A DNA stretch of 64,000 nt from Cavenderia fasciculata. Its lineage: Eukaryota > Evosea > Eumycetozoa > Acytosteliales > Cavenderiaceae. Shown here in pieces: positions 14,513 to 64,000 of this stretch (position 1 is the stretch's first letter; each line of letters opens with the position of its first letter). The notes below the pieces were generated by a model that had not been told where the DNA came from, searched no databases, and was given only the letters and a program-made list of their open reading frames with translations. The stretch lies in assembly GCF_000203815.1 (NCBI RefSeq), contig NW_004457642.1, positions 434,001 through 498,000 on the forward strand, read 5' to 3'. The position numbers were made by a program, and so were the translations under genes.

Positions 14513-17500
14513 ATGAAAAATAATTATTATTATTTTTCAATATTATTATTTTTGGTGATGTTCATCATCAGTCATGATAGTGGTGTTGTTTATTCTCAAA
14601 CTCTATCACAAGCCGAACGTATGTATAATTAATAAATAAGTAAAAGAAAAATACAAATTAGCTAAGCCCTATCTAACATCAAATTATTATTCACAAGTTG
14701 ACTCTGCTATATGGATCACTCAGCAATATAGATTTGCTACCATCGCTCCTACACAAGCTGGTATATGTGGTAGTAGTATATTCACTTGTGTTCAACTGCC
14801 ATCAGGATTCCACATTACAACAATGTAAGTAACAATCAGATAAGAATACATCACGATAATATAATAATCTATCATCATATGTATACTGATCAAAATTATA
14901 TTTATATTGATCAATATATAGAGCATTTAGTGGTGGTGGAAGTGGAGCGATAGTACAACCAAATCCAACACTAGTATTTAGTTTTCCAGAGTTGACAATG
15001 TTTGCCAATAATGTAGTCGGTGTAGCAAATGTCAACTTGAATATCTTGGATAGACTAAGAGATTTACCAAAACTACAAAAGTTATAGTATGTATATACAT
15101 ATTATGATTCTAATCTATCTTTGTAATGATTCTAATCTATCTTTTAGTCTAAACTATGACCAAACAGCAAAAAGTATGCCAGCTGATTTCGCTGAACATC
15201 TTCCTTCGTTGATTGATTTCAGAGAGCTTTTATGTCCATTGACAACGATTGATCCGTTGTTTAACAACTCTATCCTTCAAACTCTGCAGGCTGGCCCATT
15301 AACACATCTTACGATTGATCCATCACTCAATCTTTCAAAACTTGCAACGCTCACGCTGACAGTCAATCCATCAGTACCACAGACATACATTATTACCCAA
15401 AATTCATTCCCAATGTTGAGAGAAGTGTAAGTGTCATAATATTATATTATATACTATCATATGAATCGTATTAGTATACTAATAATAATAATAATAATGT
15501 TATAATATTGTTTTGATCCACTGTTATAGAACTATCACACAAGGAGAAGGTGCACCTTTAGCAGTCAGAATCAACTCTACTTTGATTACAAATATAGCAA
15601 TTGATGGTCAACTAGGAGCGGTCGACCTTGCCATTGACTCGCCACCTTCTCTTGTCACTACTTTGTAAGTGTGATTTATTATTATTATTGGATTAATCAA
15701 AATTAATTTCTTTTTCTTTTCTTTTTTTTTTTTTGAATATAGGGTATTAAATGGATTCGCATCTACAATCACTCCAAGTCTTGATCAGTTGATTGGTTTG
15801 GAGTCATTGTAAGTACTTTATCCAACCCATTTGACCATTCCCAATCCTAATTAATTTAATTTTTAAATTCTACATTTATATATTTATATTTATTTTAGAA
15901 CTATCAAGAATTCTTCAATGACGGTATTTCCATTTGATACATATCCACCACAATTGAGATATCTTGATATTTCATATTCTCTTTTGACTTCATTCCCAAC
16001 TATTCCACTTGCTCCTAAAATGACTCATTTGTAAGTAATCAACTACTACACCGAAAGATGATAGTAATCAATCGGTCGGTCAGTGGGTCAGTCAGTGTAT
16101 ATATTAACCTTTTGACAAAATAATCTTTAGAGTTTTACAAAATACTAAGATACAAGGTGAGGTACCATGGACCCTTTTTCAGAATAAAATATTATTCGAT
16201 CTTGATATTCAAGATAATATTGGTATTATTGGAACCGTTCCTCAATCATATTGTCCAAACAAAATAAATATGATGAGAACTTCAATATCAAACGTGCCAG
16301 GTAATTATATAACTCACTTCAATCTCTAAAGCAAAAAGAGTACATTTGTAACTAACTAATTTAATTACCATTTTATTAATTAATTAATTGTAGATTGTTT
16401 TTGGTGCTATGTAAATAACCCTACTGTATTTCAGACAACTCTTCCAACCCCTTCAACATTATCATGTAGTATGTAGAATATATATATAATTTCTTTTTAA
16501 TTAATTTTATTAATTATTCTTTTTATAAAGTTATTGCATATGAATCTACAAATTTGATATTAAGAGATAAATCCGGTGTTGTTCGTGGTTATCCAATGGG
16601 ATGGGGTGGCTTGTTTTCAGGATCCGTTTCTTATTGGTTAGATATGATTGGAATGAATGAATTCATGTAAGAATAATAATAATAATAATAATATTATTAG
16701 AGATAATAATTAATTAATTTAACCAACATTATTTTTATTTTTATTATTATTATTATTATTATAGTTTTTCTATCAGTTCACCTAATCCTATTTATGGTAT
16801 AGTGACTCCATTCACTTTTCAAGTTGACTTTTATTATCCAGCGTATCAATTTCCTTTTACTTATTTGGAAACAAAGTTTTCACTTGTTGATGCTACTGTT
16901 GTTCAAGTACCAAATGGAGTGTACCAATTAAAACTTGCACATGTTGAAAATATAGAAGCGTCTCTTCCATATTTAAATTATACCATATTGTTGAATGGAA
17001 CCATTCCATGTCAAGTAACATCGGTCGTTGGTAAAAATATTACATGTAACTCGGCATCTATTATTTCAGAGGGTCAATTAAAGGTTTTTAATTCAAATAA
17101 CTATTCAAACTCTACTGTGACCATTTCAGTCGGAGACTTGTACCCAGTCATCACCACACAACCATCTACCACAGTCTATGCTGAAATTGGTACCCAACTA
17201 GATTTTGAAGGTGTATTTGGTCCCAATCCAAACTTGGCGATTATTTACATCAATGGAAACAATTCTATTTGTATTAATACTGGTACTTCTACATCCACAA
17301 AGATTTCATGTAATGTAGAGTTAAACTTTATTGGTGGATTGACAAATGTAACCATCTTGGCTGATGGGTTCCCAAGTACTCCATACTTTGTAAACTACGA
17401 TACCCCACAAACCAAGTGTCCACAATTAACAAATAATTGTTCGAATCATGGAACATGTAATATTGATGGTCAATGTCAATGCAATATTGGTTATTATTCA

Positions 17501-18900
17501 AATGATTGTTCAATTGGTAAATATATAATATATTAAACAAATAATTTATTTTTTAAAATATTTAATATTAATTATTTTTTCTTTCTTTTTTTTTTTTTAA
17601 AGGATACCCTGTATTATCATCAGGAACATATGATAAACAAAATAACAAATTGATTTGTTTGTTTGGTAATTTTGGACCATATAATCAAGCGAATGTATCT
17701 GTATTGGTAAATAGTACTTTGGATTGTGTAGTCACCTACAAATCACAATACAATATTAATTGTACATTGGGATCAAATCCAACAGCTGGTTTGGTATCAT
17801 TCCAAATTCAAGTTGATAATTTGACTGGTAGTGCAAAGGATTTGTTTTATATTCCGTTACCTAATAATGGAACTAATGGAGGTACAACTACTTCATCAAC
17901 AACAGGAGGAGGAGAAACAGCACAAGAAAAATGTCAAAGAGAAACATCAAATTGCTATGGTCATGGTAAATGTGATGTGAATGGTGTATGCCAATGTGAA
18001 TTAAATTATCAACCATTAGATAATTGTTTGACAAAGATTATCAACAACACAATCCAACCAAACAACACATCACCAACTCCTGCTTTTAATATTGATGGTG
18101 TAACATTTCTTTTTGAAGTGGTTGCCATTCAAGAGATTGGTATTGACAATGAACTGATATTTGAATTATTGACAAACAAATGGAATTCAAATATTACAAA
18201 TAGTAGTGATACAACTATTGCAGTGTACAGTCTCAACCATACACTTGGAAACACAACAATCATTACATCAACCATTTCATTCTCTTCAAAACCAAGAGAT
18301 ATTCAATTTGGTTCAAAGGTGCTACACATCAATCCAAATTCAATTAAATTGTCGGTTAATGTAACTGGTTGGAAATACGCTTCAATCCTATCAACACTAC
18401 GAGTCATCTTTAAAACAACCATCAACAATAATCAAACAATAGAGTTTGATTGTAAAGATATACCAATTGACACTTTAACATTTGATCAAATGTCATCATC
18501 ACTTCAATACCTCAGAGTCATCAAAGATAATATACAATTTACAGGTAGATTTATCGATTATGTATTGTCAGATGGAAGAGAAGCATTCTCTCGAACCTAT
18601 CTTATCAACCAAACAAGTGTCCAAGGTGATAAACAATCAAACATTCTCCTCGGAATAAGTATGCCACAATGTCAATCATGTGTTCTCGATCCTGATTTCT
18701 CACCATTAATAGTTGACAAGAGTAATGATAGTGGATGTGACAGTAAATCAAATACTTGGAGAATCGTTGTTGGTGTTGTTGTTGGTGGTGTTGCATTACT
18801 GGCCATATCAGCTGCATCTGTTTTCTTTTATAGAAAAAAATGGATACACCATCGACAAGAAATATCAATGAGCAATAGACTAGGTTCAATGAGAGATTAG
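14513..18900 (+). CDS. ComC-like LRR-TIG-EGF surface receptor, copy 4 (reference copy)
   Basis: Complete 1,146-residue receptor. Twelve exons close in frame: 14513-14618, 14698-14824, 14922-15086, 15148-15426, 15530-15664, 15743-15808, 15899-16030, 16131-16300, 16394-16468, 16531-16666, 16765-17516 and 17603-18900. Exon 1 is the signal peptide (MKNNYYYFSILLFLVMF) ending SQAE. Exons 2-8 encode the leucine-rich region, and exon 9 the small DCFWCY cap. Exons 10-11 hold TIG/IPT-like domains and EGF 1 (CSNHGTCNIDGQCQC). Exon 12 holds a second TIG-like domain, a Thr/Ser/Gly spacer, EGF 2 (CYGHGKC), the supersandwich domain, the CQSCVLDPDFSPL motif, a helix (WRIVVGVVVGG start) and a basic tail with RQEISM. 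Unlike copies 1-3 there is no intron between EGF 2 and the supersandwich domain. ComC-family membership is recognised from established domain patterns; a role in adhesion or recognition is inferred. Confidence 0.92.
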
Positions 18901-18989
18901 AAAATAAAATAAAACCCAACTATTAAATTAATAAATAATTCTATAAATCAATTAATTGATTAAAATATTTATATTTATCTGTTTTTTCG

Positions 18990-19040
18990 TTTCCAAGATA
19001 TTTTATTTATAAATATCAAATTTTATAAATATCTTGGAAA
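18990..19040. repeat. 14-bp perfect inverted repeat between copies 4 and 5
   Basis: TTTCCAAGATATTT (18990-19003) pairs exactly with 19027-19040, leaving a 23-nt AT-rich loop. It begins 90 bp after the copy 4 stop codon and ends 87 bp before the copy 5 start. It could form a hairpin in the copy 4 3' transcript, or be a binding site upstream of copy 5. A related ATATCTTG word occurs twice near 23525-23555, before copy 6. Confidence 0.6.
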
Positions 19041-19126
19041 GCCGAAAATGCTCCCAACCATCCTTCGTTTTAAAATTTATCTTTAATTTTATTCATCATC
19101 ATTTAAAAAGAGATAGATAAAGACAA

Positions 19127-22100
19127 ATGTATAACAATCATTACAATGTTTTGGTTTTTTTCTTTTTGATATTTAGTTTCCTCTTTGTTGGTGTTTATTC
19201 TCAAACTCTATCACAAGCTGAACGTATGTAAACAAAGAGAGCAGTTTGTAAACTATCTATTTATTTATATTTTCGATTGATTAAAAAACACAGTTGACTC
19301 TGCCATATGGATCATACAACAATATCGTGCTGTCATCGACCCGACGCAAACTGGCATATGTGGTAGTCCAATGTTCACTTGTTATCAACTGCCAACAGGG
19401 TACCACATTACATACATGTAAGTTATATTAATGGTAAATCACAATAATTGTGAAATTTATAATAACAAATATTCAGTATTCTGACCAAAATATAAATAAT
19501 TCTCTATCTATCTATCTAGATCATTTACTGGTGGTAATGGAGACATAATACAACCAAGTCCAACACTAGTATTTAGTTTTCCAGAGGTGACAACGATTAA
19601 CATCATTTCAGGAACTGCATCAAATGTCAACTTGAATATCTTGTATCGAATAAGATATTTACCAAAACTACAAGGGGTATAGTAAGTACAGTTAGATTTG
19701 ACAAAGATTTAAATATATATATATATATATTTTAAAATGATTCTAAAAATTGCTTACTGCCCAACTTTATATATATATAGCTTTTTAAATGACCCAACTA
19801 TAACAAATATACCAGCTGATTTCTCAGATCATCTTCCATCACTTTTAAATTTCAAGGCTATTGGATGTCCAATAACAACGGTCAGCCCGTTTTTTAACAA
19901 TTCAATGTTACGAAATGTGGAAGTAGGACCATTGACACATCTAACCATTGATCCAACCCTCAATCTGCCCAATCTTGATGAAGTCATTCTTACAATCAAT
20001 CTAGCAGCACCAGAGGCATTCATCTTTACCCAAAAGTCTTTCCCAAAGTTGAGAAATGTGTAATTGTCATATTCAGAACCCATCATTTATAGTTTACTAA
20101 TAAGACTGTTTTTTTTTTATCATCTTTTTATTTAGATATATTGACGCAACTGGATCACCTTTGACAGTTAACATTAACTCTACTATGATTCAAAATTTAG
20201 GTTTTAATAACAGATTTGGAACTATCAACCTTGTTATTGAATCATCTCCCTCATTGATCAATAGTTTGTAAGTCCAAAGATAGTAGTCTATCTAGATAGT
20301 ATAGATAGTAGTATGATTATAATTTAATTAACATTTTTTTTTTTGAATCTAGGATATTAAATGGATTTGACTCTACAGTGACCCCAAGTCTTGATCAATT
20401 TATTGGTTTAGATTCATTGTAAGTATTCATTCCTGATCCATCCTTTAATTAAAGGATTGTCATCCAGATCTAACCAATTTATTTAAATTTTAGGAGGGTC
20501 AGTTATTCTTCAATGTCGACGTTCCCATTTGTGACATATCCTCCTGGTTTGAGATATATTGATTTTTCTAATTCTCTTTTGACATCATTCCCAACTGCTC
20601 CAATTCCCAATGATATGGTTTTTTTGTAAGTACTATTAAAGTAATGGTGACTTTAAAGTATATTCATATTAATATATTATTACTTTTTTTTTTTGACCAT
20701 TCAGAATTTTGAAAATATACCCAAATTCAAGGAGAGATTCCATGGACCCTTTTTGATAATAAAATACAACTTATGCTTGATATTACCGGTAATATTGGTA
20801 TTACTGGAGCCGTTCCCCAATCATTTTGTCCAAACAAAATATATATGGATGGTACTTCAATAACAAGTGTTCCAGGTCATTATATTTATAAAATAATATT
20901 AATAATAATAATAATAATAATAATAATTTAATTAACTAATATATTTCCTTTTCTTTAGATTGTTTTTGGTGCTATTCAAGAAATACTGGTGTATTCAAGA
21001 CAAATCTGACACCTCCTCTCATGCAATGCAGTATGTTTTTAAATAATATATATATTTATAAAAGCACAAGTTAACCTATTCTATTATTAATCATTTATTA
21101 TCATTTTATTTAAGATATTGTTTTTGAATCTACAGATTTGATAACTATTGATAGAGTTTCTGTTGCTCGTGGTCACCCAATGGGATGGGGAGGTATCTTT
21201 TTGGGCGGATCAAATATTTATTATTCATTGGAGATGATTGCATATGACGCATACCGGTATGTACATTCTTTCCCAACCAACCAACACTTTCGAAACAAGC
21301 TTTTTATTCTTTTTCTAATTCTTTTTTTTTTTTTAATTTAAAAATTTTAACAGTTTTACCTTGGGTACAGCTATATATGGAATTAAAACTCCATTTACTA
21401 TGATGACCGATTCTAATTATCCAGAGTATAGTTATAGTTTTACTTATTTGGAAGTAAAGTTTTCACTTGCTACAGTGAATGTTGTTCAAGTACCAAATGG
21501 ATTATACCAATTACAACTTATACATGTTGAAAACATAGAAGATTCGCTTTTATCTTTAGACTATTCTATATCGATAAATGATACGATCCCATGTTCAATA
21601 TCATCTATCGTTGGAACTACTATTACGTGTACTCCTACATCAACCCTTTCAGTAGGTCAACAAGTAAATGTTTTCAATTCAAACAACTATTGGAATGCTA
21701 GCATGACCGTTATAGTCACAAACTTGTACCCAAACATCACCCTCCCCACCACAACCAATGCTCAAATTGGTGGTCAACTCACTTTCCAAGGTACATTTGG
21801 TCCAAATGTAAACTCGGCCATTATTTACATCAATGGAGACGATTCTATTTGTATCATTGGTGGTTCAATGTCTTCAGTTCTTATATGTAATGTAGTTTCA
21901 AATTTTGTAGGTGGACTAACAAATGTAACCATCTCGGTTGATGGGTTCACGAGTACTCCATTTTTCGTAAACTACACTACCCCACAAACTGAATGTTTAC
22001 AATTAACAAATAATTGTACCAATCATGGAAATTGTGATATTAATGGTCAATGTCAATGCAATAATGGTTATTATTCAAATGATTGTTCAATTGGTAAATA

Positions 22101-23471
22101 TTAAAATAATACAAATAATAATATTAAATATTAATTAATATTCTTTTTTTTTTTTTTATAGGATATCCTGTATTATCATCAGGAACATATGATAAACAAG
22201 ATAACAAATTGATTAGTTTGTTTGGTAATTTTGGACCATATAATCAAGCAAATGTATCTGTATTGGTAAATAGTACTTTGGATTGTGTAGTTACCTACAA
22301 ATCACAATACAATATTAATTGTACTTTGGGGTCAAATCCAACAGCTGGTTTGGTATCATTCCAAATTCAAGTTGATAATTTGAATGGTAGTGCAAAGGAC
22401 TTGTTTTATATTCATTTAAATAATGGAACTAATGGAGGTACAACAACTACTTCATCAACAACAGGAGGAGGAGGAGGAGAAACAGCACAAGAAAAATGTC
22501 AAAGAAAAACATCAAATTGCTATGGTCATGGTAAATGTGATGTGAATGGTGTATGCCAATGTGAATTAAATTATCAACCATTAGATAATTGTTTAACAAA
22601 GATTATCAACAACACAATCCAACCAAACAACACATCACCAACTCCAGCATTTAATATTGATGGTGTAACATTCCTTTTTGAAGTGGTTGCCATTCAAGAG
22701 ATTGGTATTGACAATGAACTGATATTTGAATTATTGACAAACAAGTGGAATTCAAATATTACAAATAGCAGTGATACAACTATTGCTGTCTATAATCTCA
22801 ACCATACACTTGGTAACACAACAATCATCACATCAACCATTTCATTCTCTTCAAAACCAAGAGATATTCCATTTGGTTCACAGGTGCTCCACATTAACCC
22901 AATTCAATTAAATTGTCGGATAATGTCACTGGTTGGAGATACGCTTCAATCCTATCAACACTACGAGTTATCTTTAAAACAACGATCAACAATAATCAAA
23001 CAATCGAGTTTGATTGTAAAAGATATACCAATTGACAGTTTAACATTTGATCAAATGTCATCATCACTCCAATACCTCAGAGTCATCAAAGATAATATAC
23101 AATTTACAGGTAGATTTATCGATTATGTATTGTCAGATGGAAGGGAAGCATTCTCTCGAACCTATGTTATAAACCAAACAAGTGTCCAAGGTTCTGATGA
23201 CAAACAATCAAACATTCTCCTTGGAATTGGAATGCCTCAATGTCAATCATGTGTTCTCGATCCTGATTTCTCACCATTAATAGTTGACAAGAGTAATGAT
23301 AGTGGATGTGACAGCCAATCAAATACATGGAGAATCATTGTTGGTGTTGTCGTTGGTGGTGTTGCATTACTGGCCATATCAGCCGCATCAGTCTTCTTTT
23401 ATCGAAAGAAATGGAGTCACCAGAGACAAGAAATATCAATGAACAGTAGACTACGTTCAATGAGAGAGTAG
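19127..23471 (+). pseudogene. ComC-like receptor, copy 5, with damaged reading frame
   Basis: Same twelve-exon plan as copy 4: signal peptide from 19127 (MYNNHYNVLVFFF), leucine-rich exons, TIG-like domains, EGF 1 (near 21985-22090), EGF 2 (near 22495-22595), supersandwich domain, helix and RQEISM tail. Compared with copies 4 and 6, the exon beginning near 20706 has two extra bases (an AT in the run at about 20712-20719), which puts it out of frame and soon gives a stop. The donor at about 20876 is GTCATT where its sisters have GTAA. In the last exon one A is missing near 22901 and one A is gained near 23019, so about 40 residues are read in another frame before the frame is restored. Either the gene is decaying or the assembly has indel errors here; I favour decay at about two to one. 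Confidence 0.7.
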
Positions 23472-23661: not shown

Positions 23662-26600
23662 ATGAATAACCATTACAATGTTTTATTTGTTTTAGTATTT
23701 TTATTCAGTTCTGTTGTTGTATATTCTCAAACTCTACCGCAAGTTGAACGTATGTAAAGAGATCTCTGAAATCAGCCCAATTTTTTTTTTTTTTAACAAT
23801 CTATTTATATTTTGATTGGCTGATGTCTTGAACACGAATATAAAATAACTAGTTGACTCTGCCATCTGGTTAACACAACAATATCTTGTCACCATCGCCC
23901 CTACGCAAACTGGCATATGTAGTAGTGGAGGTAGGTTCACTTGTACTCAGTTGCCATCAGGATACCACATTACTAGCATGTAAGTACTATTTTAATTTGT
24001 ACATTAACATACACCTCCACTGTACTGACCAATAAAATCACTCCATATAAATCTTAATATAGATCATTTACTGGTAGTACTGACCCATCAACTCAACCAA
24101 ATCCAATGCTAACATTTAGTTTTCCAGAGTTGGAATCATTTTCAATCACTGCTGCCTCTGTATCAAACGTAAACTTGAATATCTTGAATCGATTGAGAGA
24201 TTTACCAAAATTACGAGTGATATCGTAAGTACAATTTTAATAATATCATTTTTATTCCTCTTCCTTCTCATCCTAACATTTTACCAAAAAAATTTTCTTC
24301 ATCTCTCTAATAGCCTATTCGATGACCCATCGGTAGTAATTGTACCAGCTGATTTCTCTGAACATCTTCCATCACTAGTCAATTTCAAAGCTGTTGAATG
24401 TCCATTGACAACGATCGACCCGTTGTTCAATAACTCTTTGCTCCAATTTTTAGAAGTTGGACCATTGACACATCTGACCATTGATCCAACACTCAATCTA
24501 TCCAAACTTGAACAGATCGTTTTGACACTCAATCTAGCAGCACCAGAGACATACACCATTACTGAAAAGTCGTTCCCAAAGTTGAAAAATGTGTAAGTGT
24601 TATAATCGACTATCCATCATTTATACTCTACTAATACTTTATGTTTAATGTCAATTTATAGATATATCGATCTAACTGGTTCACCTTTGACACTCAATAT
24701 AAATTCTACTATGATTCAAAATATAGGGTTTAGTGATATGTTGGGAACGGTCAACCTTGTTATAGACTCGCCACCATCTTTAATCAATAGTTTGTAAGTC
24801 AATTATTAACATTTTATCCTGATATTAAGATTTTATTATTATGGATATTAACATTCTTTTTTTTACTATAGGGCATTAGTTGGATTGACAACTACAGTCA
24901 CTCCTAGTCTTGATCAGTTTACGGGGTTGGAATCATTGTATGTGTCTATTCATCCAAACATAAAAGACTGTCATCTAACCAATTTATTTATTACCGTATT
25001 TTAGGAGATTCTCGTATTCTTCATTGACCACATACCCCTTTGTAACATATCCACCACGATTGAGATATCTTGATTTTTCATATTCTCTTTTTACATCATT
25101 CCCAGCAGTTCCAATAACTAATACATTGGATTTTTTGTAAGTATATATTAAAATTATAAAGATATATAAATAAGGAGGAGTATTAATATTATTGTTTAGA
25201 ATTTTGAAAAATGGTCAAATGCAAGGTGAGATTCCATGGCACATTTTTGATAATAAATTATTATTCAGCCTCGATATTGCCAATAATATTGGTATCAATG
25301 GAACAGTTCCTCAGTCATATTGTCCAAACAAAATATTAATGGAAAATACTGCAATTACAAGTGCACCAGGTAACCTAATATTTAAATATATCAACAAAAA
25401 TGCAAAAGATATACATTTGTAACTTATCTCACCCCTTTCTTTTATTATTATTATTATTATAGATTGTTTATGGTGTTATAAAAGAAATTCAAATAATTTC
25501 AAGACTACTCTACAAACACCTGTTGGTCTAACATGTAGTATGTAAAAAATATGAAATATTATTATAGTTGTGTCAATTCATTACTAATAATATTTCTTCT
25601 TTATTTTTTATACAGATATTGTTTTTGAAACTACTGATTTGATAACTATTGATAACGTTGCCATTGTCCGAGGCCAGCCCATAGGTTATGGTGGTTCGTT
25701 TGTGGGTGGACCAAATGTTTTTTATAGTTTGGAAATGATCGAATACAATACATTCCTGTATGTATACATACCTTTCTCACCTGTCACCCAAATTAGTATT
25801 ATTTATAAATTAATACTCATTCTTATTATTTTCAATTTCTTTAATATATTTATAATTTGATAGTTTTACCTTGGTTTCAACTATATACGGAGTGAAAACT
25901 ACTTTTGATATGAAAACAGACTCTGATTATCCAGAGTATAGTTATAGTTTTACATACTTGGAAACAATGTTTTCAATGGTTGGTATAAATATTGTTCAAG
26001 TACCAAATGGATTGTACCATTTACAACTGGTACATGTTGAAAATATAGAAGATTCACTTTTATATTTAACTTATTCCGTAATGATAAATGATACAATTCC
26101 ATGTTCAATATTATCTATTGTCGGAACTATTATTACGTGTACTCCTATTACACCTGTTTCATTAGGTCAACAATTAAATATTTACAATTCAAACAGCTAT
26201 TGGAATGCTAGTATGACCATTACAGTCGAAAACGAATACCCAAACATCACCCAATCCACAACAACCAATGCTCAAATTGGTAACCAACTGATTTTCTATG
26301 GTTCATTTGGTCCAAATGTAAATTCAGCCGTTATATACTTTAATGGGAATAATTCTATTTGTATCACTGGTGGTTCAATGGCATCCATGTTGATATGTAA
26401 TATAGCTGCCAATTTTGTTGGTGGATTGACAAATGTAACCATAGTGGTCGATGGTTTCACAAGCCCTCCATTTTTTATAAACTACGACACTCCTCAATCC
26501 ATATGTCCACAATTAACAAATAATTGTTCAAATCATGGAACTTGTAAAATTGATGGTCAATGTCAATGTAATGCTGGTTATTATTCAAATGATTGTTCAA

Positions 26601-28884: not shown

Positions 28885-29150
28885 CTCTTGTCAACTATTA
28901 ATGGTGAAAAAATGATTGACATTGAGGCATTCCAATTCCAAGGAGAATGTTTGATTGCTCTATCAGCCGCATCTGTTTTCTTTTATAGAAAAAAATGGAT
29001 TCTACGGCAAGAAATATCAATGCAAAACAAAATAAAACCCATTTAATATTTCCTTTAATATATAATTCTATAAATAGTTTTAATACCTCTTTACAATTTA
29101 ATTAAAACTACCTATAAATATATATATATAAATAAAATAAAAAATAAAAA
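28885..29150. pseudogene. Scrambled relic of a ComC-like receptor 3' end
   Basis: Two receptor fragments are joined in opposite orientations. 28885-28957 matches the reverse complement of the region encoding the PQCQSCVLDPDFSPL motif (compare 23215-23295), with roughly 16 bases missing inside. 28959-29045 matches, in direct orientation, the membrane helix and RQEISM tail, and the similarity continues into the 3' flank to about 29150 (compare 27886-28095). The inverted part looks more like copies 4 and 5, while the direct part and its flank look like copy 6. This is the remains of a further plus-strand array member. Confidence 0.85.
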
Positions 29151-42661: not shown

Positions 42662-42939
42662 TCCTTCCTTCCTTAATCTATCTCTAATCTATCTATCTAT
42701 AGGATTGTAATATTACAACTATACAACTATACACTTATACTCTAGTACTAGCAATCTAATCTTTGCAAGAAGAATGCAATGAATGATGTGTGTTTGGTTT
42801 GGGTAAAGTAAAAAAAAAATAAAATAAAAAAAGAAAATACATTTTTTGTAAAGTGTGATGGATGAAGGTGAAGGGTGATGTTCATTCATTCATTTTAAAG
42901 TGTGTATTATATTTATGTAATATTACAAACGAACGAACG
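42662..42939. other. Divergent promoter region, HAD gene and malonyl-CoA synthetase
   Basis: 278 bp between two divergent starts, with TATC-type short repeats near 42680-42702 and A-rich tracts near 42810-42840. An upstream in-frame ATG for the synthetase lies at 42862. Confidence 0.45.
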
Positions 42940-53172: not shown

Positions 53173-54297
53173 TTATATTTAGTAGGATGTGATGTAATAA
53201 ATAACAATATTATTATTTTTATAAATTTGGATATTGTTGTTTTAAAATAAATGTGAATTTAATTAATTAAATTGGCAATTAATGGTACAAAAGAGGTAGT
53301 AGCTTGGCTGGATTATATATATATATATATATATATTTAATTTATATATGTTTATAAATAAAACGAATTATTATGAATAAAAAGATGGGAAGAGTTACCA
53401 TGGTGAAGATGTTATTATTATTATTGTTATTATTATTATTATTCTCCTTGCCTTTGGGTTGAGAGGGTATGCACTCGAATGTTTATCTGATATTTCATAT
53501 ACCCATAGTCATATAGATAGGTACCTACCCCCAAGAAATTTAGAATATCTTTTCTCCATCTTTGTCCATCTTTTTATTCTCTGTCTCTGTCTCTCGCACA
53601 AGTAGAGTAGAGCACTAATAGATCTATTATAATCTCCATATTCCAGCACTACAAGGTCTTTCTATTGTTGTGTCAGTTACTATAGTAACAACTAAAATAG
53701 ATAACAACACCATTATTTACAACATGTATTGAATTAATTAATAGGGTTGTCAACATCAACAATATATTCGACAATGCGATGTTGTTTTAAAATATTATTA
53801 TCTGTATATACATACACACATGAAAATAATAATAATTATTATTAATTCGGGGGAGAGAGATCTAAAAATATGTGTGTGGTGGGTATATACAAATATATTT
53901 ATATAAGCGAGATCGTCCAATAATTAGGCACTTCATATGACTCGTGAAATGGTTGACAACAATATTGTTGACAATAAAGATTGTTTACAAGTTTGCATTA
54001 AATTATAATTGCATTCGTTTGTTGTATTCATTGACATGTTTGTGTGATGTACATTTTTGTTGGGTCGATCGATTATTATGTTAGCATATGACCGACTGTA
54101 CCAACAACAATAAGGAATTGACAATTTTTTGTAGTAGTGAATAAACTTGTTGTATGTATCTTTGTTTAAATGTATGTACGTTCAGCTTTCTGTTCTCGTC
54201 TAATGTTACAGCGAGTTTGGAAAAATGTGTTTATTTGGCGCCAAAAAGATCTAAAAATATACAGAATATTTATTAATAATTTATTTATTTATTTGTA
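53173..54297. other. Upstream region of the Steely synthase
   Basis: 1.1 kb between the synthase start and the 3' end of receptor copy 7. It contains an (AT)n run at 53314-53336, an (ATT)n tract near 53410-53442, a 14-bp palindrome (CAACAATATTGTTG) near 53956-53969, and the perfect 12-bp palindrome listed separately. No convincing gene is seen. The synthase promoter must be here. Confidence 0.55.
54234..54245. promoter_or_regulatory. Perfect palindrome TTTGGCGCCAAA (E2F-like)
   Basis: A 12-bp palindrome matching the E2F consensus in both directions, in non-coding DNA. It is about 1.06 kb upstream of the Steely start and 53 bp past the stop of receptor copy 7. Its target, if any, is unclear. 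Confidence 0.35.
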
Positions 54298-57243
54298 TTA
54301 TTTATTCATTTTTTTCATAAAGATACTCTTGGCAGCTTTTATCTTTAGTCTTGTAGAGTTACTATCACGAAGATAGAATACAAGTGCAATGACCAATGCT
54401 ATAAATACAGCTCCACCAACAACACATCCAACTATAATCTTCCACATGTTGGATGATGATGGTGATGAACAATCGACCTTTTCATTGTTGACGACCAATG
54501 CACTGAAATCTGGGTCTAGTAAACAAAAAGTACATTGAGGTACATGAACTCCAATCAATGCCAATGATTCATTGTTGTTGTTTCCAATGATATTGGTCTG
54601 ATTGATTAATTCATTTCTTGAAAATGTCTTTCTACCATCTGAATAGGAATACGAGAGGAATCTACCATAGAATTGTGTATCATTCTTGATAACTCTTAAA
54701 TAACTATCACTTCCTAGTATCTGTTCAAATGTTGGAATATCACTAGAGGAACATGATTGAATGGTTGATTGTTCATTATTGACAATCGTTGAGAATACAA
54801 CTCTGAGATGTGATAGGATCGATTGGTATTGCCATCCAGTGACATTTACACCAACTTTAATACTATTTGCTCCAACTGATACAATACTATCTCCAAATGG
54901 TAATTGTCTGTCTTGTGTTGAATATTCAATCAATGATGTGACATTGACAATTGATGATAGTGTTGGATACAATGTTGAATTGATCAACAATCTGTAATGA
55001 AGTGATGTAGATCATCACCTGATTGATCTGTAACATTCCATTGATCGACAATTAACTCTTGTACAACATTATCGTCAACATCCAACTCTTGAATCGCAAC
55101 CAATGAGAAAAAGAATTTATATCCATCCAATTCAAATGTTGCAACTGGTTTTGTATCGTTTTGAACAAATGTTACATTTGGATTCTCTAAAGTAAATTTT
55201 TAAAAAAGATAGAATTAATATTAATTATTATTATTATTTGTTTTGTTTTTAATACATACTAAAATATCTACAATTATCATAATAATTTTGATCACAAACA
55301 CATATTCCTTGGTCACTACATTGACCATGACCATAACAATTTAATGTATCTTCAATACATTTTTGTTTTAAATCGATTGATGGTGGGAATGGATAAAAGA
55401 TAGTATTGACTGCTGAAAAGAAATCTTCTATTTTGGCTTGTACCGATGCTTGTCCAGGTTGTGGTGCTGATAATAATGTACAAAGAATTGTAGTTTGATT
55501 CTTTGATGTTACTGGGCATTGTAATGTTCCATTTAAAGTAACCCAAGCATAATATACATCTATTGATTCTCCAAAATACCCATACACAGCCAACGATAAA
55601 TTACCAATCATTTGAACAGATGTAACCAATGGGTAAATTAATTGAGTACCTAAAAGAAATAAAAAGTTAAAATACTAAAGATATTTTTTTAAAATAGACT
55701 ATCGTCATTCACATACCTGGAGCAGTAATTGTAACCTTATTGATATTATAATCATTTTTAATTGTAGCTGTAAATGTACCAGGGTTAAGTTGATCGACTT
55801 GACATAACAGAGTATTGGTTGTCGAAGATGAACTTAGCACAGTGCAAGGGAATTCAAACATACTACTTGATTGCAATGTAACATAGTGTGGGAGAAAGGT
55901 GTTATAGGTCAATTTAAAGGTAAATGTCCTGGTAAGAGGTTCAAAACTAGATGCCGTTACAATAATCGTTGCATCCACAACCTGGAATTCTTTGTAATGG
56001 AGATCTCCAAATTCTAATCCAACTGTTTGAGGTGCACCACTTCCTAAAAAATCAATCCTATTTTCATATATTATAATATATTAATATTAACTACTACTAC
56101 TACTAATTGAACGATGAAGTGGTCTATCCTGAGTACTTACGCAACTTTTGTATTTGGAGTGATGATTGAATAATTTGAACCATCTTTCCAACCAAAATTA
56201 GAACCAGTGATTTCAGCTATTCCATTTTTAGATCCAAATACCAATTGATTAAATGTTATTTCTATAATAGATTAAATCAATCCAATAATTAATTATTAAA
56301 TAGTAAAATAATATAATATACTCTTTCTACATACGACATTTGAATCCAACGGCAGGAGGAGAGTTTGCTGAAAATCCTAATTGTTTGTCATAGTAGCAAT
56401 TGAAGCAATCGGGAACAGAGTTAATAGATGTGTTGGCGATAAATGTACGGAGTTGACAGAATCTGGAATCGAGTGATCCCGACAGGTGAGGATTATCTGA
56501 TACATCAAACAATAAGGATGAACGTCCACTTGGAATGATATCATTTGAAAGTGTGCCTGTTAAATTATTGTTTGCGAAATTACTTTTTGATTCAAAAACA
56601 AAATAGTTGTAGAGGTATTAGTGAGTGGACCATGTCGTGTTGGTTGACAATCAATTAATCAATAAGTATTTAATTTAATTTAATTTAATTACTTACATTG
56701 ACGCCATTGGAAGTTCAATGCTAATAGGTGGAATAGTTGTGAGACCACGTTGAATAGTTCTAAATAAAAAAAAAATAGAGAGAGTTAATAATAAAACAGT
56801 ACTCGGGGAAGAATGTAACATTATTACATACAAATAACGTAATTTACGATATGATGATGTAAATGGTAGTGTAGTAAATTGATGATCATAGATTGATCTA
56901 AATAATAAAAGAAAAGAATTTAATTAGGATTTAGGAATTCCTAAAATAACAATCAATCAATCGATACAAACAATGTTTCTAAATTTGGATACGTATCAAA
57001 ATCAAAAGGGGCAACTGTTGCACCTGCACTAAAAAGTTCTCTAAAATATTATTTATCAATTAATTAATTAATTAAATATTTTCAACTAGTTGTATGAATA
57101 AGAAGGTTCAGTTTACTTACAAAAATCCCAACTCTTTTGGATGACTTGGTGTAGCTGATACATTTCCAAACAATTGTCTAAATAAATAAATAAATACATA
57201 AACAATATTAATATATATTTCATATTCATCCACATTCAAGATA

Positions 57244-57279
<36 letters not shown>

Positions 57280-58424
57280 CATACATTGTAGAAAGATACC
57301 TATTATCTAAAGCCAATGATAGAACACTAACTCCATTTTGTTTAAAAACTCTTTTTTTTTAAAAAAAGATAAAGAATTATTATTATTATTATTAATCATT
57401 TGATATGTATGTATGTGTATGTGTGTGTACTTACAATTCAGTTAGATTTCCGAGTGCACCTAAAGAATATGATATACCAGCAGTACTAATATTCACTTCT
57501 AAATTGATTGATAAGATGGCTGGATAAACATTTGCCTTGATGGTAAACACGTCTAGACGTGCCAGTGTACGTGTTCCAGACAACTCGACTGATCTGAGCT
57601 CTGATGCATTTCCAAGACTGCGCACATTGACAATATTTGGACATCCCTTCAATTCAAGGCTGACAAGTAAAGGCATATTGGTTCCAAATGATGATGGAAT
57701 ACTACTAATTGATCCATCATCGATAATACTAGTATTATCCAAACACCAAAACCAAAAAGAATATAAAGTAAAGTATTAATTAATTAATTTAATAAATAAT
57801 TTATATTTAAATGTATATATATATATATATATATATTGCTTCAACATACGATATTGATTTTAAAATCTTCAAAGGGGAGATATCAAGCATATCAAGAGTT
57901 GATGTTGTACCTATAAAAGATACATTGTTTTTAAAGATCAAAGACATTGATCTCAACTCTGGGAATTGAAAGCTTGTGATCCCCAAGTACCCAGGTGACA
58001 GTGATGTAGCATTGAATGCAGTCACTTCAATGTTTCTAGAAGTGTAAAAGAGTATTATTATTATTATTATTATTATTAATCATCAGTAATATTAATCACA
58101 TTTTGATACAAACATTTTAGTGATATGAGTATATAGATTAGATGGTTCGGGTGTACATGTAAACATCGAGGTCATCGAACAGATATCTTCTTGTGTCTCT
58201 CTAACTGTGAGACCTGTGTGTCTGACTAACCATACTACTGATTTAACTGTAGTAAGCAGTAGAATAGATTGTTAATAACTATCATCTCTCTCTCTCTCCT
58301 ATCTCTCTAAACACATACGTTCTGCATCTGGAATAGGTTGAGCATTAATCTTTAGTATTACAGTGTTTGCTAAAGTAAATATGACAACACACAAGACAAT
58401 GAAATCGAAACTGATGTGTTTCAT
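54298..58424 (-). pseudogene. ComC-like receptor, copy 7 (one-EGF subfamily), with one frame break
   Basis: Starts at 58424 with a signal peptide (MKHISFDFIVLCVVIF) ending PDAER before the usual intron. Leucine-rich exons run from about 58320 to 56330 and are more numerous and shorter than in copies 1-6. TIG-like domains lie at about 56250-55380, and a single EGF-like module (CYGHGQC) at about 55355-55260. After an intron, the supersandwich domain opens with a variant of the family motif (FFSLVAIQELDVDDN). One base is missing near 55009 compared with copies 8 and 9, so the frame breaks early in this domain; the correct frame is open again from 54990 to 54298 through the helix and basic tail. 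If real, the product would lack the membrane anchor. Sequence error is the alternative. Confidence 0.72.
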
Positions 58425-58740
58425 ATTATTATTATTATACATGCCGATTTTATCCCTTGAAATAAAGTATAATTATATTTTGAACAAAAATAATATGAGT
58501 ACTCATGATGAGTTGCTTGCAAGTGATCTGTCGGACATGATCCAACATCCATTTTCTTTGATTCAAGGATTGTTTAGTCCGTCAGTGACCAAGGTTCTAT
58601 GTCGAGATTTTATCTGTAGATATTTACTAAAACAACAAGAGAACTTTTCAAGACTACTGATTCGGACTATTTATGTGCGCCTGTTCGAAAGAGAAAAACG
58701 GAGAATGCTTGATCAAAACAACTCCTGCACCTTATCTTTA
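58425..58740. other. Spacer between copies 7 and 8 with an unexpected open frame
   Basis: 316 bp upstream of copy 7 and downstream of copy 8. A plus-strand frame (58363-58770, 135 codons) crosses the whole spacer and overlaps both neighbours antisense. It also contains the palindrome ATGAGTACTCAT near 58495-58506. I do not call the frame a gene. Confidence 0.4.
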
Positions 58741-61700
58741 TTACACATCTTTATTAACCTTTTTCATTAGAATACTCTTGGCTGCTTTGAGCTTAAATCT
58801 TGCTGTATTACTATCACGAATATAGAAAGCCAGTGCAATGACCAATGCTATAAATACAGCACCACCAACAACACATCCAACTATAATCTTCCACGTGTTG
58901 GATGATGACGGTGAACAATCACTTTGTTGTTCCTTGTTGACGACCAATGCACTGAAATCTGGATCGAGAAGACAAAAAGTACATTGAGGTACATGAACTC
59001 CAATCAATGCCAATGATTCATTGTTGTTGTTTCCAATGATATTGGTTTGATTGATTAATTCATTTCTTGAAAATGTCTTTCTACCATCTGAATAGGAGTA
59101 CGAGAGGAATCTACCATAGAATTGTGTATCATTCTTGATAACTCTTAAATAACTATCACTTCCTAGTATCTGTTCAAATGTTGGAATATCACTAGAGGAA
59201 CATGATTCGATGGTTGATTGTTCATTGTTGACAATCGTTGAGAATACAACTCTGAGATGTGATAGAATCGATTGGTATTGCCATCCAGTGACATTTACTC
59301 CAACTTTAATACTATTTGCTCCAACTGATACAATACTATCTCCAAATGGTAATTGTCTGTCTTGTGTTGAATATTCAATCAATGATGTAACATTGACAAT
59401 TGATGATAGTGTTGGATACAATGTTGAGTTGATCAACAATCTGTAATGTAGTGATGTAAGATCATCACCTGATTGATCTGTAACATTCCACTGATCGACA
59501 ATTAACTCCTGTACAACATTATCATCAACATCCAACTCTTGAATTGCAACCAATGAGAAAAAGAATTTATATCCATCCAATTCAAATGTTGCAACTGGTT
59601 TTGTATCGTTTTGAACAAATGTTACATTTGGATTCTCTAAAGTAAAAATAAACAAATATATTAATATTAATTATACTTGATTATCATATTTGATTATAGT
59701 TATTTAAATTACAACATACTAAAATATCTACAATTATCATAATAATTTTGATCACAAACACATATTCCTTGGTCACTACATTGACCATGACCATAACAAT
59801 TTAATGTATCTTCAATACATTTTTGTTTCAAGTCGATTGATGGTGGGAATGCAATACTAATGGCATTATTTAAATTGGTATTGAATCCATCCACTTGAAC
59901 TTGTACTGATGCTTGCCCAGGTGGTAGTTGAGAGGAGGAGGAGGATGAAGATATTGTACAAATAATGGTAGTTTGATTCTTTGATGTTACTTGACATGCT
60001 AGAGTATTATTTAAAGTAACCGATGGTGAATTAAATGTATTATTTCCAAAATTACCATTCAATGTTAATGATTGTAATGTTGCACCTGATAATTGTGCTG
60101 ATGATATCAATGGATATGATATTATTGGACTACCTATAAATAGATTATAAATAAAAATAATCATGGATTAATAATGATGATTAAAGAGAATGCTTTGGAT
60201 TGGATGATAGGGTCAGAGAGTCTGTCATCTGTCATCATACCTTGAATACTTTGAAGGTATATATTTGACTTGAAATAGGGATTTGAAATAACCAAAGTAT
60301 AATTACTTGATGGTATTTGATACAGTTGACATCTAATATTGGCAGAGTCACTGAAATAGATTGAGCAAGGGTAGCGTAACCCCTTGTCTAGTGACACTAT
60401 TTCAATAGAGTGACTAATAAATGGATTGTAATCTAAACCAAGCATACTTATACTCATAAGTGCATTGTCGAATGATAAACCCGACGCCTTTATATCGGCA
60501 ACCACAACCTTTGTCTCTAGATAATATTTGCCACTAAAATTGAATCCAACAGTTTGAGGAACACCCTTTTGAGTAAATGGGAATCTATATTATATATTAC
60601 GACGTATAATAAAAATATTGGTATTATTATTATTATTATTATTATTACAATATAAACTAAATTATAATATAATAACTTGACTTACGAAATTTTAGTATTT
60701 GGGATCACCATTGTGTAGTTTGATCCAGGTTCCCATCCCAAGTTTTTGCCCGTAATCAAAACTTCTCCTTTAATTGACGGGAATATTTCTTTATCAAATT
60801 GGATATCTATTAATACATAAATATATATAACCCATATATTAGTATTAGTGGCCACTCTTTTTATCATTTCATCAATTAATGAATCAACAACAACAACATA
60901 CCACAGTGAAAACCTGCAGGAGGTGGGATCGATGAAGAGAATCCTATATTTGCTCCATAGTAGCAGTAAAAACAATCTGGTACTTGTGTAATTCCAGTGT
61001 TTGCAACAAAAGCATAAAATGAACAAAAATTGGGAGTGAGAGAGCCTGTCATAAAAGGATTATAGACTAAATCCATCCATAGTCCTGGAGTAGCTGTTAA
61101 AAATGGTTCAAGTGGTAATACTCCTGTGAAATTGTTTGAATTAAAGGATCTTTCAAACATAAAAATAGAGTATATATTGTTAATATATTTAAATATGGGT
61201 TTCAAGTAATCGTAGTATTGATTTGATCGATTGATTGATTAATTACATTGCTTTTAAAGAAGATGGGAATGGAGAGCTTGGAAAATTGCCTACTATATTA
61301 CTTTGAACGATCGCGCTATAGTATTGATTGAAATTAGAGAATTAGTTTATAATCCTCTTTCTTTACTTTCTTCGACTTTTTTTACATACATTGATTCTAA
61401 ATTGGGTGTTAATGAATAATCAGTGAATGGGTAGATGACTTGACCTGGCGCTTGTCTCCTTACACTATAATAATAACATATAGAATTAATAATAATAATA
61501 ATAATAAGATGGATTAATATTAATATTTTAAAGAGTGATGTGTACTGACATATAGGTATACATATGTGTATGTAACATACTAGTGTTTTAACAATGGATA
61601 GGCTGATATTTCACTTGGCACAACAGAGGTGTTGAAATATTGGGATAAATAGGTTAATTTTTTTGTATGTGAGATATTGATAATCACATTTCCTTGTATC

Positions 61701-62962
61701 GCTCTAGTAAGTAAGTATTCAAACCAAAAGATTAGAGTTAATTCATTTATATATCTTTTGTTTCAACTTACATTAAATCAATAAATTGCGATTTCAAATT
61801 TATCTTTGTAGTTTTTGAAACTGAATAGTCAACAAAATAACTAAAATACAATAAATAAATAAATAATAAACATATTATTAATTATTATTAATTATTATTA
61901 TTCTAAAGTTTCAACTTACAAATTAGTCAGTGGCATTGTTATATCGAAAGATTGATCAGATTCTGGTGCCATTTCAATTTGCAGGTCCTTGATTGGGTAG
62001 GATTGTTGTTGTATTTGATCCCACATTAATCTCTTGAGAAAGGATGACTGGTGGAGTGAAAAGGTTGTTGCCAGTGGCATTGCTCCAAAGCTAGACACTT
62101 CAATTAGATTTGGACAATTTTGTAGTACAAAGTGTTTCAAAGTAACAAGATTGCTACCAAATGTTGGTGGTATGGTTGTGATGGTAATATCACTCTTTAT
62201 ACTATATATATATAATAAATATATATAATATATGCAATGATTAGTAAGAGTAAAGAATTAGAATTAGAATATTAGGAATAATGTCAACCCAAACATACCT
62301 TAGGTATTGTAATAGTGGAAACGATCCACTCAACATTGATAGTGTCGACGTAGGTATATTGGATTTATATCCTGCGCCAAAATTAATCGACATACTGGTT
62401 GCATATGGAAATGTCAATGATGTGATCCTTAAATCAGGTGTACCAACATCTCCATAGACTTTGGTAACCAAGTTACTTTACGTTGCGTCAAAAACAAAAA
62501 CAAAAAGAAGAAGAAGAAGAAAATGAAGAGTTAGTATAGGAGGGATTAATGGTCATATGATTCTCTATCAATCTATCTATCAATCTATCTTTTCAATTAC
62601 ATACATTGAAACAATTCTGTACCCAATACCTTGTACATTGCTACAACTTATTTGCCCAGAGCTACACATACTGACTTGATCTTGTAGTATCTCTGTTATA
62701 CCCATTTGACGAATCAACCAAATTGCTGAATCAACTTTATAAATATAATATGAAGAATGATTAGTCAACTAGTTGTCATGATAGAAAGGATATTACTATA
62801 GATCGTATTAATAAATAACATACGTTCATTTTGTGGAAGTGCTTGTGATGATACACTGACGACGCATAGTGATAATATAATAATGAAGACGGTAACAAAA
62901 ATCGATGATAAACACACTCCACCTAAAGCTGAAGGGTGTCGATTATTATTATTTATTTTCAT
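58741..62962 (-). CDS. ComC-like receptor, copy 8 (one-EGF subfamily)
   Basis: Complete, apparently intact receptor. The start at 62962 gives a signal peptide (MKINNNNRHPSALGG, then a long hydrophobic core) ending LPQNER at the first donor. Many small leucine-rich exons lie between about 62740 and 60900, with the DCFYCYYG cap near 60960. TIG-like domains span about 60780-59880 and include a Ser-rich insert near 59930-59960. A single EGF-like module (CYGHGQC, CVCDQNYYDNC) lies at about 59825-59715. After an intron near 59710-59640 come the supersandwich domain, the PQCTFCLLDPDFSAL motif, one helix (WKIIVGCVVGG start) and a short Lys/Arg tail ending KKVNKDV. From the EGF module onward the sequence is nearly identical to copies 7 and 9, while upstream parts are much more divergent from copy 7. 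Confidence 0.87.
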
Positions 62963-63252
62963 TTATTATTTGATTATCTCTTTAAACTACTACAGTATCA
63001 TCAATAATATTAATCTTCTTTCGTCTCTTTCATTATCATATATTCGTCTTTTCGTAGAAGGTCAACGAGCATATAGTCTATATAACCCAAAACCCAGCAG
63101 ATATTTTAATCTTCAGTTGAACCAGGTTTTTTGCATATGATTGTCTTTGAAGTCCAGGATGACGTGCATTGAATTTGTTTGGGTATACTATTATAGTGAT
63201 TTCTTGATAATAAGAATATTTGGTTTATTTGTTACTTTATTTCTTTATTTAT

Positions 63253-64000
63253 TTACACATCTTTATTAACCTTTTTCATTAGAATACTCTTGGCTGCTTT
63301 AAGTTTAAATCTAACTGAATTACTATCACGAATATAGAAAGCCAGTGCAATGACCAATGCTATAAATACAGCACCACCAACAACACATCCAACTATAATC
63401 TTCCACGTGTTGGATGATGACGGTGATGAACAATCTGATTGTTCCTTGTTGACGACTAATGCACTGAAATCTGGATCGAGAAGACAAAAAGTACATTGAG
63501 GTACATGAACTCCAATCAATGCCAATGATTCATTGTTGTTGTTTCCAATGATTTTGGTTTGATTGATTAATTCATTTCTTGAAAATGTCTTTCTTCCATC
63601 TGAATAGGAATACGAGAGGAATCTACCATAGAATTGTGTATCATTCTTGATAACTCTTAAATAACTATCACTTCCTAGTATTTGTTCAAATGTTGGAATA
63701 TCACTAGAGGAACATGATTCGATGGTTGATTGTTCATTGTTGACAATCGTTGAGAATACAACTCTGAGATGTGATAGGATCGATTGGTATTGCCATCCAG
63801 TGACATTTACACCAACTTTAATACTATTTGCTCCAACTGATACAATACTATCTCCAAATGGTAGTTGTCTGTCCTTGGTTGAATATTCTATCAATGATGT
63901 GACATTGACAATTGATGATAGTGTTGGATACAATGTTGAATTGATCAACAGTCTGTAATGAAGTGATGTAAGATCATCACCCGATTGATCTGTAACATTC
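63253..64000 (-). CDS. ComC-like receptor, copy 9 (N-terminus beyond window)
   Basis: Only the last exon is visible. The frame is open from the right edge to the stop at 63253. It encodes most of the supersandwich domain, the PQCTFCLLDPDFSAL motif, the membrane helix and a tail ending KKVNKDV. At the position of the copy 7 frame break this copy has the intact sequence. It differs from copy 8 at only a few residues (for example KIIGN for NIIGN, KDRQL for QDRQL). It lies head to tail with copy 8, 290 bp from that gene's start. Confidence 0.9.
   Translation of the reverse strand, partial: NVTDQSGDDLTSLHYRLLINSTLYPTLSSIVNVTSLIEYSTKDRQLPFGDSIVSVGANSIKVGVNVTGWQYQSILSHLRVVFSTIVNNEQSTIESCSSSDIPTFEQILGSDSYLRVIKNDTQFYGRFLSYSYSDGRKTFSRNELINQTKIIGNNNNESLALIGVHVPQCTFCLLDPDFSALVVNKEQSDCSSPSSSNTWKIIVGCVVGGAVFIALVIALAFYIRDSNSVRFKLKAAKSILMKKVNKDV

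Follow-up and report, generated by a model that had tools for sequence, protein, structure and literature searches.

The 64 kb of the Cavenderia fasciculata genome analysed here (C17:434001–498000, called the window below; C17 is a contig of 942 kb) hold nine copies of one gene plan, in which a leucine-rich repeat (LRR) head is followed by TIG and EGF modules, a ComC_SSD domain (SSD) and a transmembrane segment (TM). The copies form three arrays, A (copies 1–3, minus strand), B (copies 4–6, plus strand) and C (copies 7–9, minus strand), with copies 1 and 9 truncated by the window ends. According to our analysis, these genes probably encode ComC-type single-pass surface proteins that combine a stalk homogenised by gene conversion with a faster-changing concave face of the LRR head, and that putatively recognise varied targets. 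Recurrent conversion within arrays keeps the TIG3-EGF2-SSD part young and alike, while the heads have long been separate. In pairs from array A and from a further array, F, the rate of change on the concave face is five to six times that of the remainder of its exon and equals or exceeds the neutral rate.

The comparison was made within one genome (31.0 Mb, 21 contigs) and covers 34 modelled genes: those of the window and of neighbouring C17 DNA, four dispersed genes (group D), six on contig C14 (group E) and five on contig C1 (group F). The models were built in-house, one gene per copy, without transcripts; self-trained gene finding gave false exons and merged genes. First exons and signal peptides are uncertain for A1, A2, A3, B1 and C1, and foreign 5' exons are included in the models of A-9, A-2 and D3; the region compared begins with the LRR. 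Because its SSD differs widely from those of its neighbours, E6 was excluded from the within-group figures for E (leaving 33 of the 34 genes), a choice made after its protein had been seen.

Median synonymous divergence (dS) in the LRR and the SSD, respectively, was 1.88 and 0.30 in A (66 pairs), 0.50 and 0.27 in B (3), 1.71 and 0.12 in C (6), 1.93 and 0.37 in D (6), 1.29 and 0.11 in E (10) and 1.61 and 0.25 in F (10). Such low SSD values within groups, set against heads that are mostly near saturation, indicate that the stalk has been homogenised and not merely conserved. Between groups, the proportion of synonymous differences (pS) in the SSD was 0.56–0.74 (except A–F, 0.45, and C–D, 0.33), compared with 0.10–0.29 within them; the SSD is thus close to saturation in most comparisons from group to group, which speaks against an overall constraint on its synonymous sites. 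The heads are themselves near synonymous saturation (array B least) and are therefore old rather than hypervariable. In arrays A, E and F the synonymous divergence steps down at EGF1, reaches its minimum in the SSD and rises again through the TM into the tail, and pS in the last alignment block was 0.86–0.92 in A and F (saturated like the heads), 0.55 in E and 0.45 in C. The island of similarity therefore spans about EGF1/TIG3 to the SSD, with a second sharp fall past the stop codon, where the flanks are at chance level.

The initial annotation had described nearly identical EGF2, SSD, helix and tail parts below diverged LRR and outer TIG parts. The conservation of EGF2 and the SSD and the divergence of the LRR and outer TIGs were recovered in all six groups (33 of 34 genes). 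The near-identity of helix and tail does not stand as a general rule: the TM and cytosolic part share 52–87% amino-acid identity within groups, and near-identity was seen in some pairs, for example C1/C4.

The genealogies of head and stalk also disagree. The nearest neighbour by SSD differs from the head neighbour in 28 of 34 copies and, when only the eight sister pairs are counted, in 14 of their 16 members. In these counts, head neighbours carry little information for the most diverged copies, and the B2 stalk includes a frame-shifted stretch. By approximately unbiased (AU) tests, four of seven head-sister pairs are rejected in the tail (E2/E3, p = 3e-5; E4/E5, 0.001; A-1/A1, 0.0011; A-4/A-3, 0.002). 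The pairwise homoplasy index (PHI) gave p = 0.001 for TIG3-SSD in 7/7 sets, two of which overlap others, and p = 0.001–0.05 for the SSD alone in six of the seven, with C at 0.32 (8 informative sites).

The copies in the window, on whose coordinates the following comparisons depend, are these:
1–4165, minus strand: copy 1 (A1), gene model; first exon uncertain, 3' end about 155 bp to the left of the window.
845–2131 and 3148–3618, minus strand: TIG-EGF exon and LRR exon of copy 1, gene model.
4543–8939, minus strand: copy 2 (A2), gene model; ComC_SSD at 101.6 bits (cut-off 24).
Same interval, minus strand: order of parts in the copy 2 gene model, LRR head, TIGs, EGF1, TIG3, EGF2, SSD, TM.
4543–5447, 5540–6844 and 7854–8309, minus strand: SSD, TIG/EGF and LRR exons of copy 2; LRR by profile and model, TIG/EGF by an Ig/IPT-like model.
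7854–8309, minus strand: LRR exon of copy 2 with five LxxLxLxxN units, used in the concave-face test.
9068–13640, minus strand: copy 3 (A3), gene model; 5' end uncertain, with a hydrophobic leader-like open reading frame (ORF) at 12916–13128.
14558–18900, plus strand: copy 4 (B1), gene model; stalk exon 17605–18900, ComC_SSD at 89.7 bits.
19127–23471, plus strand: copy 5 (B2), gene model; stalk exon 22164–23471, ComC_SSD at 56.8 bits.
Between 22901 and 23018, plus strand: frame-shifted stretch of copy 5, from a reading-frame check of the stalk.
23662–27975, plus strand: copy 6 (B3), gene model; stalk from 26670, frame disruption near 27201.
54298–58552, minus strand: copy 7 (C1), gene model; homogenised stalk 54298–55389, frame disruption near 55009.
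58741–62962, minus strand: copy 8 (C2), gene model; homogenised stalk 58741–59849.
Copy 8, minus strand: ComC_SSD at 66.5 bits and TIG at 21.1 bits (cut-off 20.9), Pfam search.
63253–64000, minus strand: 3' part of copy 9 (C3), gene model; runs on to C17:502056.

Sliding identity bears out the sharp change inside genes that had been reported for these copies, although the account as a whole is confirmed only in part. In copies 7 and 8 the switch lies at the FPPSIDLKQKC motif (55357–55389 and 59817–59849), as had been claimed: identity is 60% over the 300 bp 5' of the motif (shuffled control, 48%), 92% from the motif to the stop including the intron, and 49%, which is chance, over the 200 bp past the stop. 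Taking eleven 100-bp blocks from 55352, seven are 95–100% identical, and the remaining four are at 79 (intron), 83, 90 and, at the 3' end, 60%. Copies 5 and 6, said to be almost identical over about 650 bp at their 3' ends, share 94% over the last 650 bp but also 92% over the preceding 650 bp, so that the stretch is about twice as long; their 5' 2 kb are 69% identical and the 200 bp beyond the stop 48%. The first array (copies 1–3, about 1–13 kb), which that account left out, follows the same pattern, and copy 9 overruns the window.

Copies C1–C4 are mosaic, as can be traced along copy 7 by sites at which two copies are set against the other two. From 56012 to 55556, 58 of 71 such sites group C1+C4 against C2+C3; the 11 sites at 55300–54590 are mixed, and two stretches are uniform:
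55369–55521, minus strand: mosaic stretch in copy 7; 16/16 sites group C1+C3 against C2+C4.
54272–54484, minus strand: mosaic stretch in copy 7; 29/29 sites place C1 with C4 and C2 with C3, and the stretch extends 26 bp beyond the stop.
C2 and C4 have a common 179-bp identical run in the first of these. The 123 sites up to the stop fall into 26 runs, compared with a mean of 54.9 and a minimum of 39 in 10,000 permutations. Between non-sister copies, some stalk introns have moved together with the stalk: that of C1 is identical to that of C4, and those of A-7/A-3 and of A-2/A-1 look similar by eye for much of their extent. Conversion of the stalk, as first proposed, is thus strongly supported by synonymous sites, mosaics, PHI, AU tests and some shared introns.

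In A-8 and A-6 (L045, L046-L047), dS is 0.09 in the TIG-EGF part, compared with 0.24 in the LRR and 0.27 in the stalk, so that conversion may sometimes reach the head.

The plan common to the 34 models consists of an LRR region of about 320–400 codons with what we take to be, from the motif DCFWCY, its cysteine cap, followed by Ig-like TIGs, one or two EGF modules, separated or preceded by a TIG, and then the SSD and one TM. A C-terminal hydrophobic segment with a cytosolic tail of 21–29 residues is present in all nine window copies, and a clear hydrophobic leader in five of the nine models. Among the 10 ORFs given, ComC_SSD (PF22933) exceeded its cut-off in all four that bear an SSD (56.8–101.6 bits vs. 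24), EGF_2 matched in six, once above the cut-off (22.7 vs. 22.1), and TIG matched in one, that of copy 8. The profile of the LRR exon matches SHOC-2 (best E = 2.3e-29), LGR5, Toll-like receptors (TLRs) and variable lymphocyte receptors (VLRs), and its AlphaFold (AF) model (pLDDT 84.9, pTM 0.81) contains five motif strands; by both profile and model this exon is an LRR solenoid with LxxLxLxxN units. Foldseek returned nothing at E ≤ 0.001 for the LRR exon, the matches listed being mostly LRR chains. The TIG/EGF exon profile matches the MET receptor (E = 2.4e-8), and the TIG model (pLDDT 71.7, pTM 0.47) matches Ig/IPT arrays (NCAM2, plexin) with TM-scores of about 0.2. No TIR domain was found in the nine window copies, whose cytosolic part is limited to those 21–29 residues.

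The heads are on average under purifying selection. In nine sister pairs, the ratio of nonsynonymous to synonymous divergence (dN/dS) was 0.30–0.76 for the LRR, 0.29–0.51 for TIG-EGF and 0.13–0.44 for the SSD-tail part. A mixture test with multinucleotide changes, applied after strict filtering to eight sister pairs (seven for the SSD, B2/B3 being dropped for frame-shifted stretches), gave a mean ratio (omega) of 0.30, 0.21 and 0.087 for the LRR, TIG-EGF and SSD, with about half of the LRR sites fitting the neutral class. Without multinucleotide changes, M2a seemingly detected positive selection everywhere, strongest in the SSD used as a control; this result was not trusted, since a class with omega above 1 appeared even in the control, and it vanished after filtering and multinucleotide modelling.

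The face of the LRR is a different matter. We defined as concave the exposed x positions 2, 3, 5, 7 and 8 of LxxLxLxxN, and as core the positions 1, 4 and 6. This test was devised after the null mixture result, and four versions of it are reported: a first pass, in which the class was partly data-dependent and the pair A-5/A-3 was included, which is not independent of A-4/A-3; a model-supported version with five LxxLxLxxN units in five sister pairs of arrays A and F, in two of which concave dS is undefined by simple count; a rule fixed by the motif alone in eight pairs, which probably accepted some motifs that do not form LRR units; and a hold-out set (arrays B, C and E). In the model-supported version, the proportion of nonsynonymous differences (pN) at positions 2, 3, 5, 7 and 8 was 0.30, 0.56, 0.46, 0.61 and 0.39, and at the core positions 1, 4 and 6 it was 0.18, 0.25 and 0.16. 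In the A/F pairs concave dN/dS was 1.80 (p = 0.0015 for a difference from 1) and fell to 1.06 (p = 0.77) once multinucleotide changes were modelled; for the exon outside the motifs it was 0.29 and 0.21, respectively, and the two classes differ at p ≤ 2e-20 under both models. The other non-hydrophobic sites of the modelled exon had pN/pS of about 0.46 in the first pass. In the hold-out arrays concave pN was 0.37 vs. 0.22 (odds ratio 2.1, p = 5e-5), and the pairs E4/E5 (20 codons) and B2/B3 (14 codons) had concave dN/dS above 1. The excess of the concave face over the rest of the exon is thus firm; strict positive selection on it is not. The diversifying selection that had been proposed for the leucine-rich exons is accordingly not borne out at the level of domains (dN/dS 0.30–0.76; no gain of M2a over M1a once multinucleotide changes are modelled), is supported in part at the concave face (about 1–1.8 in A/F pairs) and more weakly so in B, C and E, so that the initial interpretation is supported in part.

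Several results weigh against the reading of a converted stalk under a diversifying face. Intron homogenisation is found in some pairs only, and mean last-intron identity barely exceeds that of shuffled sequence (A 0.63/0.56, C 0.49/0.42, D 0.66/0.58, F 0.68/0.56); the intron of copy 8 is unlike those of other copies although the flanking exons match. Given this mixed result, many conversions may be old, short, or halt at the intron. The AU test does not reject C2/C3 in the tail (p = 0.37), and the head sisters A-8/A-6 and A-7/A-2 (two of seven pairs) recur in the tail tree. PHI is significant in some heads too (A 0.001, D 0.006, C 0.04, also C+D), although not in those of E (0.17) and F (0.077). 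E6 is not homogenised, its SSD having 68% amino-acid identity to those of E1–E5 and pS of 0.63, which suggests that homogenisation of the C14 array is incomplete. As to selection, the mixture test with multinucleotide changes found no class with omega above 1 (M2a over M1a, twice the log-likelihood difference 0.21 for LRR, 0.06 for TIG and 0 for SSD). By the motif-only rule, concave dN/dS was 0.84 (0.62–1.11) by counting and 1.05 under the single-change model; when multinucleotide changes were allowed for, it was 0.65, significantly less than 1 (p = 4e-4). These values are still about twice those of the rest. The pooled concave value of the hold-out arrays was 0.76 (rest, 0.49), also below 1, with E2/E3 at 0.67 and dS undefined for C2/C3.

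The best reading of the architecture is that of candidate recognition receptors, directed at other cells or at microbes. The concave LRR face would contact varied targets (surfaces of other cells, or microbes), and the common stalk would do what all copies need, be it pairing with common partners, presentation, or signalling through a partner; a shared pairing or signalling role is suggested because no known signalling domain would fit into 21–29 cytosolic residues. Stalks may stay convertible because they are constrained, the heads having drifted past the similarity that conversion needs. According to a review, conversion between duplicated genes goes on until divergence disrupts pairing, and selection can restrict it locally (PMC3924837). 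A wider version, to which we would give somewhat less than an even chance, is a germline repertoire of at least 150 candidate LRR-headed receptors, with the stalk kept current by interlocus conversion and with diversifying concave faces; if true, this would be a receptor repertoire resembling those of innate immunity or kin recognition outside animals and plants.

A homogenised family need not serve recognition. Neutral concerted evolution of a family of adhesion or matrix proteins, with a concave face that is merely unconstrained (dN/dS about 1), would account for the value of 1.06 with multinucleotide changes, for the lower values that the motif rule and the other arrays give, and for the half of LRR sites in the neutral class. 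In addition, D. discoideum comC has a developmental phenotype, its mutants being listed with aberrant aggregation (PMC2873529). We nevertheless hold this explanation to be rather unlikely, as in the modelled exon the sites free of constraint lie only on the canonical binding face of the LRR, with pN/pS of about 0.46 at other non-hydrophobic sites.

Similarly doubtful, in our opinion, is allorecognition of the TgrB1/TgrC1 kind in place of microbe recognition, in which heads would bind heads or partners on other amoebae. The copies belong to a TIG-domain surface family of the same lineage, tgr genes recombine and expand, and A3/B1 and C3/C4 stand head to head, as described for tgrB/tgrC pairs (PMC12324515). 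Most neighbours are tandem, however, at least 150 loci per genome suggest a repertoire rather than a two-gene tag, and the word "leucine-rich" does not occur in the main text of PMC12324515; none of this is decisive.

Explanations that dispense with conversion fare considerably worse. Purifying selection on the stalk and a relaxed head could explain why dN/dS is lowest in the SSD (0.087 when multinucleotide changes are modelled) and why most stalk introns are hardly better kept than shuffled sequence. Plain constraint is contradicted by the dS profile, which falls about 2-fold (B) to 14-fold (C) from head to stalk in the same groups, by the near saturation of the SSD between most groups, and by the mosaics, AU tests and PHI, and it is very improbable. 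A recent origin of the copies by tandem duplication, after which diversifying selection or hypermutation rapidly changed the heads, is more improbable still: it would fit the tandem arrays, their spacing of about 4.5 kb and the contrast of head and stalk, but the heads are near synonymous saturation (array B least) and hence old, domain-average dN/dS with multinucleotide changes is 0.30 for the LRR and 0.21 for TIG-EGF, and most head sisters are not tail sisters. An assembly artefact or a field of pseudogenes, to which the small frame disruptions in the stalks of B2, B3, C1, C4, A-2 and A-4 and a relic at 28885–29022 might point, is the least credible of all, given that 28 of 33 stalk ends are open across the 292 residues checked, that codon-level constraint was found in all three regions tested and that the pattern repeats on C1, C14 and C17.

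The nearest parallel to the converted stalk is provided by mammalian TLR1 and TLR6, tandem LRR receptors whose membrane-proximal parts are alike by conversion and whose outer LRRs differ; gene conversion there covers the C-terminal LRRs, TM and TIR (PMC2077338). Those are two genes with a TIR domain, whereas the amoeba family has at least 150 loci and no TIR, and its homogenised part is extracellular (TIG/EGF/SSD), whereas that of TLR1/TLR6 includes the cytosolic tail. The present family thus offers a clean natural case of conversion acting on one receptor part across many loci, and extends the TLR1/TLR6 case from two genes to arrays.

VLR and LRR receptor-kinase chains are among the LRR profile matches. 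Lamprey VLRs and plant LRR receptor proteins resemble the amoeba family in that they vary on the concave LRR face and keep the stalk below it constant; VLRs are assembled somatically, whereas the amoeba copies are complete germline genes. How phagocytic amoebae distinguish bacteria, kin and strangers is, to our knowledge, a largely open question, and a large family in which the stalk is homogenised and the LRR binding face changes fast supplies named genes and residues and a simple, testable prediction, namely polymorphism at concave sites.

Within the social amoebae, the copies resemble Dictyostelium ComC and the orthologue group OG5_153020 in having ComC_SSD above the Pfam cut-off together with EGF and TIG domains. 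That group (EGF/IPT-TIG) has 9, 43, 35 and 50 members in Ddis, Asub, Ppal and Dfas, respectively (PMC4334915, Table 2). We infer that it corresponds to the present ComC-type family, the expansion of which is thus already in print (PMC4334915). As far as that account goes, it does not describe an LRR head, array-wise conversion of the stalk or an excess of change on the concave face, and our count of at least 150 exceeds its 50 Dfas members. According to Table 3 of PMC4931340, comC is found only in group 4. The Tgr family is likewise composed of TIG surface proteins that recombine and expand, with some head-to-head neighbours, and Tgr-like TIG/IPT and TM features are present in ComC-type copies (the TIG of copy 8; the MET and plexin IPT matches). 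In D. discoideum, however, Tgr genes recombine within the recognition regions too, whereas in the ComC-type genes, which have LRR heads, conversion acts mainly on the stalk (PMC12324515 for Tgr). In the open-licence literature we found no description of stalk conversion or of LRR concave diversification in a ComC-type family.

A genome search with PF22933 detected at least 150 ComC_SSD loci: of 282 candidates 150 were scored, all 150 above the cut-off, and at least five modelled copies (A-2, B2, C1, C4, D3) lie outside the scored set. Of the scored loci, 83 sit in 25 clusters (gaps ≤10 kb), and contig C17 carries 40, with 4.6 expected by length. Within arrays the tandem spacing is about 4.5 kb and most neighbours are tandem. 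A further locus starts at a distance of 502 bp from a contig end (C2), so that some copies may sit near chromosome ends. In four loci dispersed on C17 and C7 (L041-L044), the heads are 28% identical, compared with 22–26% in most between-group comparisons, and the SSDs are 91% identical despite these unlike heads, which suggests that stalk types are common to more than tandem arrays.

Two pairs of neighbours, A3/B1 (C17:447640/448558) and C3/C4 (C17:502056/502165), are divergently transcribed; the modelled starts of C3/C4 lie about 110 bp apart, their first exons being uncertain. Small frame disruptions occur in six stalks (B2, B3, C1, C4, A-2 and A-4; window positions 22901/23018, 27201 and 55009, also C17:423415) and may be errors or decay. 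In copy 5, two mutually offsetting frame changes leave about 40 frame-shifted codons inside a well-conserved stalk. Just downstream of copy 6, at 28885–29022, two short fragments of an array-B tail lie in opposite orientations and are the relic of a rearranged copy.

The remaining genes of the window, named here from their translations, appear ordinary in the block at 32–44 kb between arrays B and C, where we assume a HAT-repeat factor and SEC11-like, sugar-transporter-like, adaptor sigma-like, CutC-like, PCNA-like and HAD-like genes. What is presumably an acyl-CoA synthetase-like gene (42859–44577, plus strand) adjoins a large gene at 44676–53172 (minus strand), which we take to encode a type I polyketide synthase.

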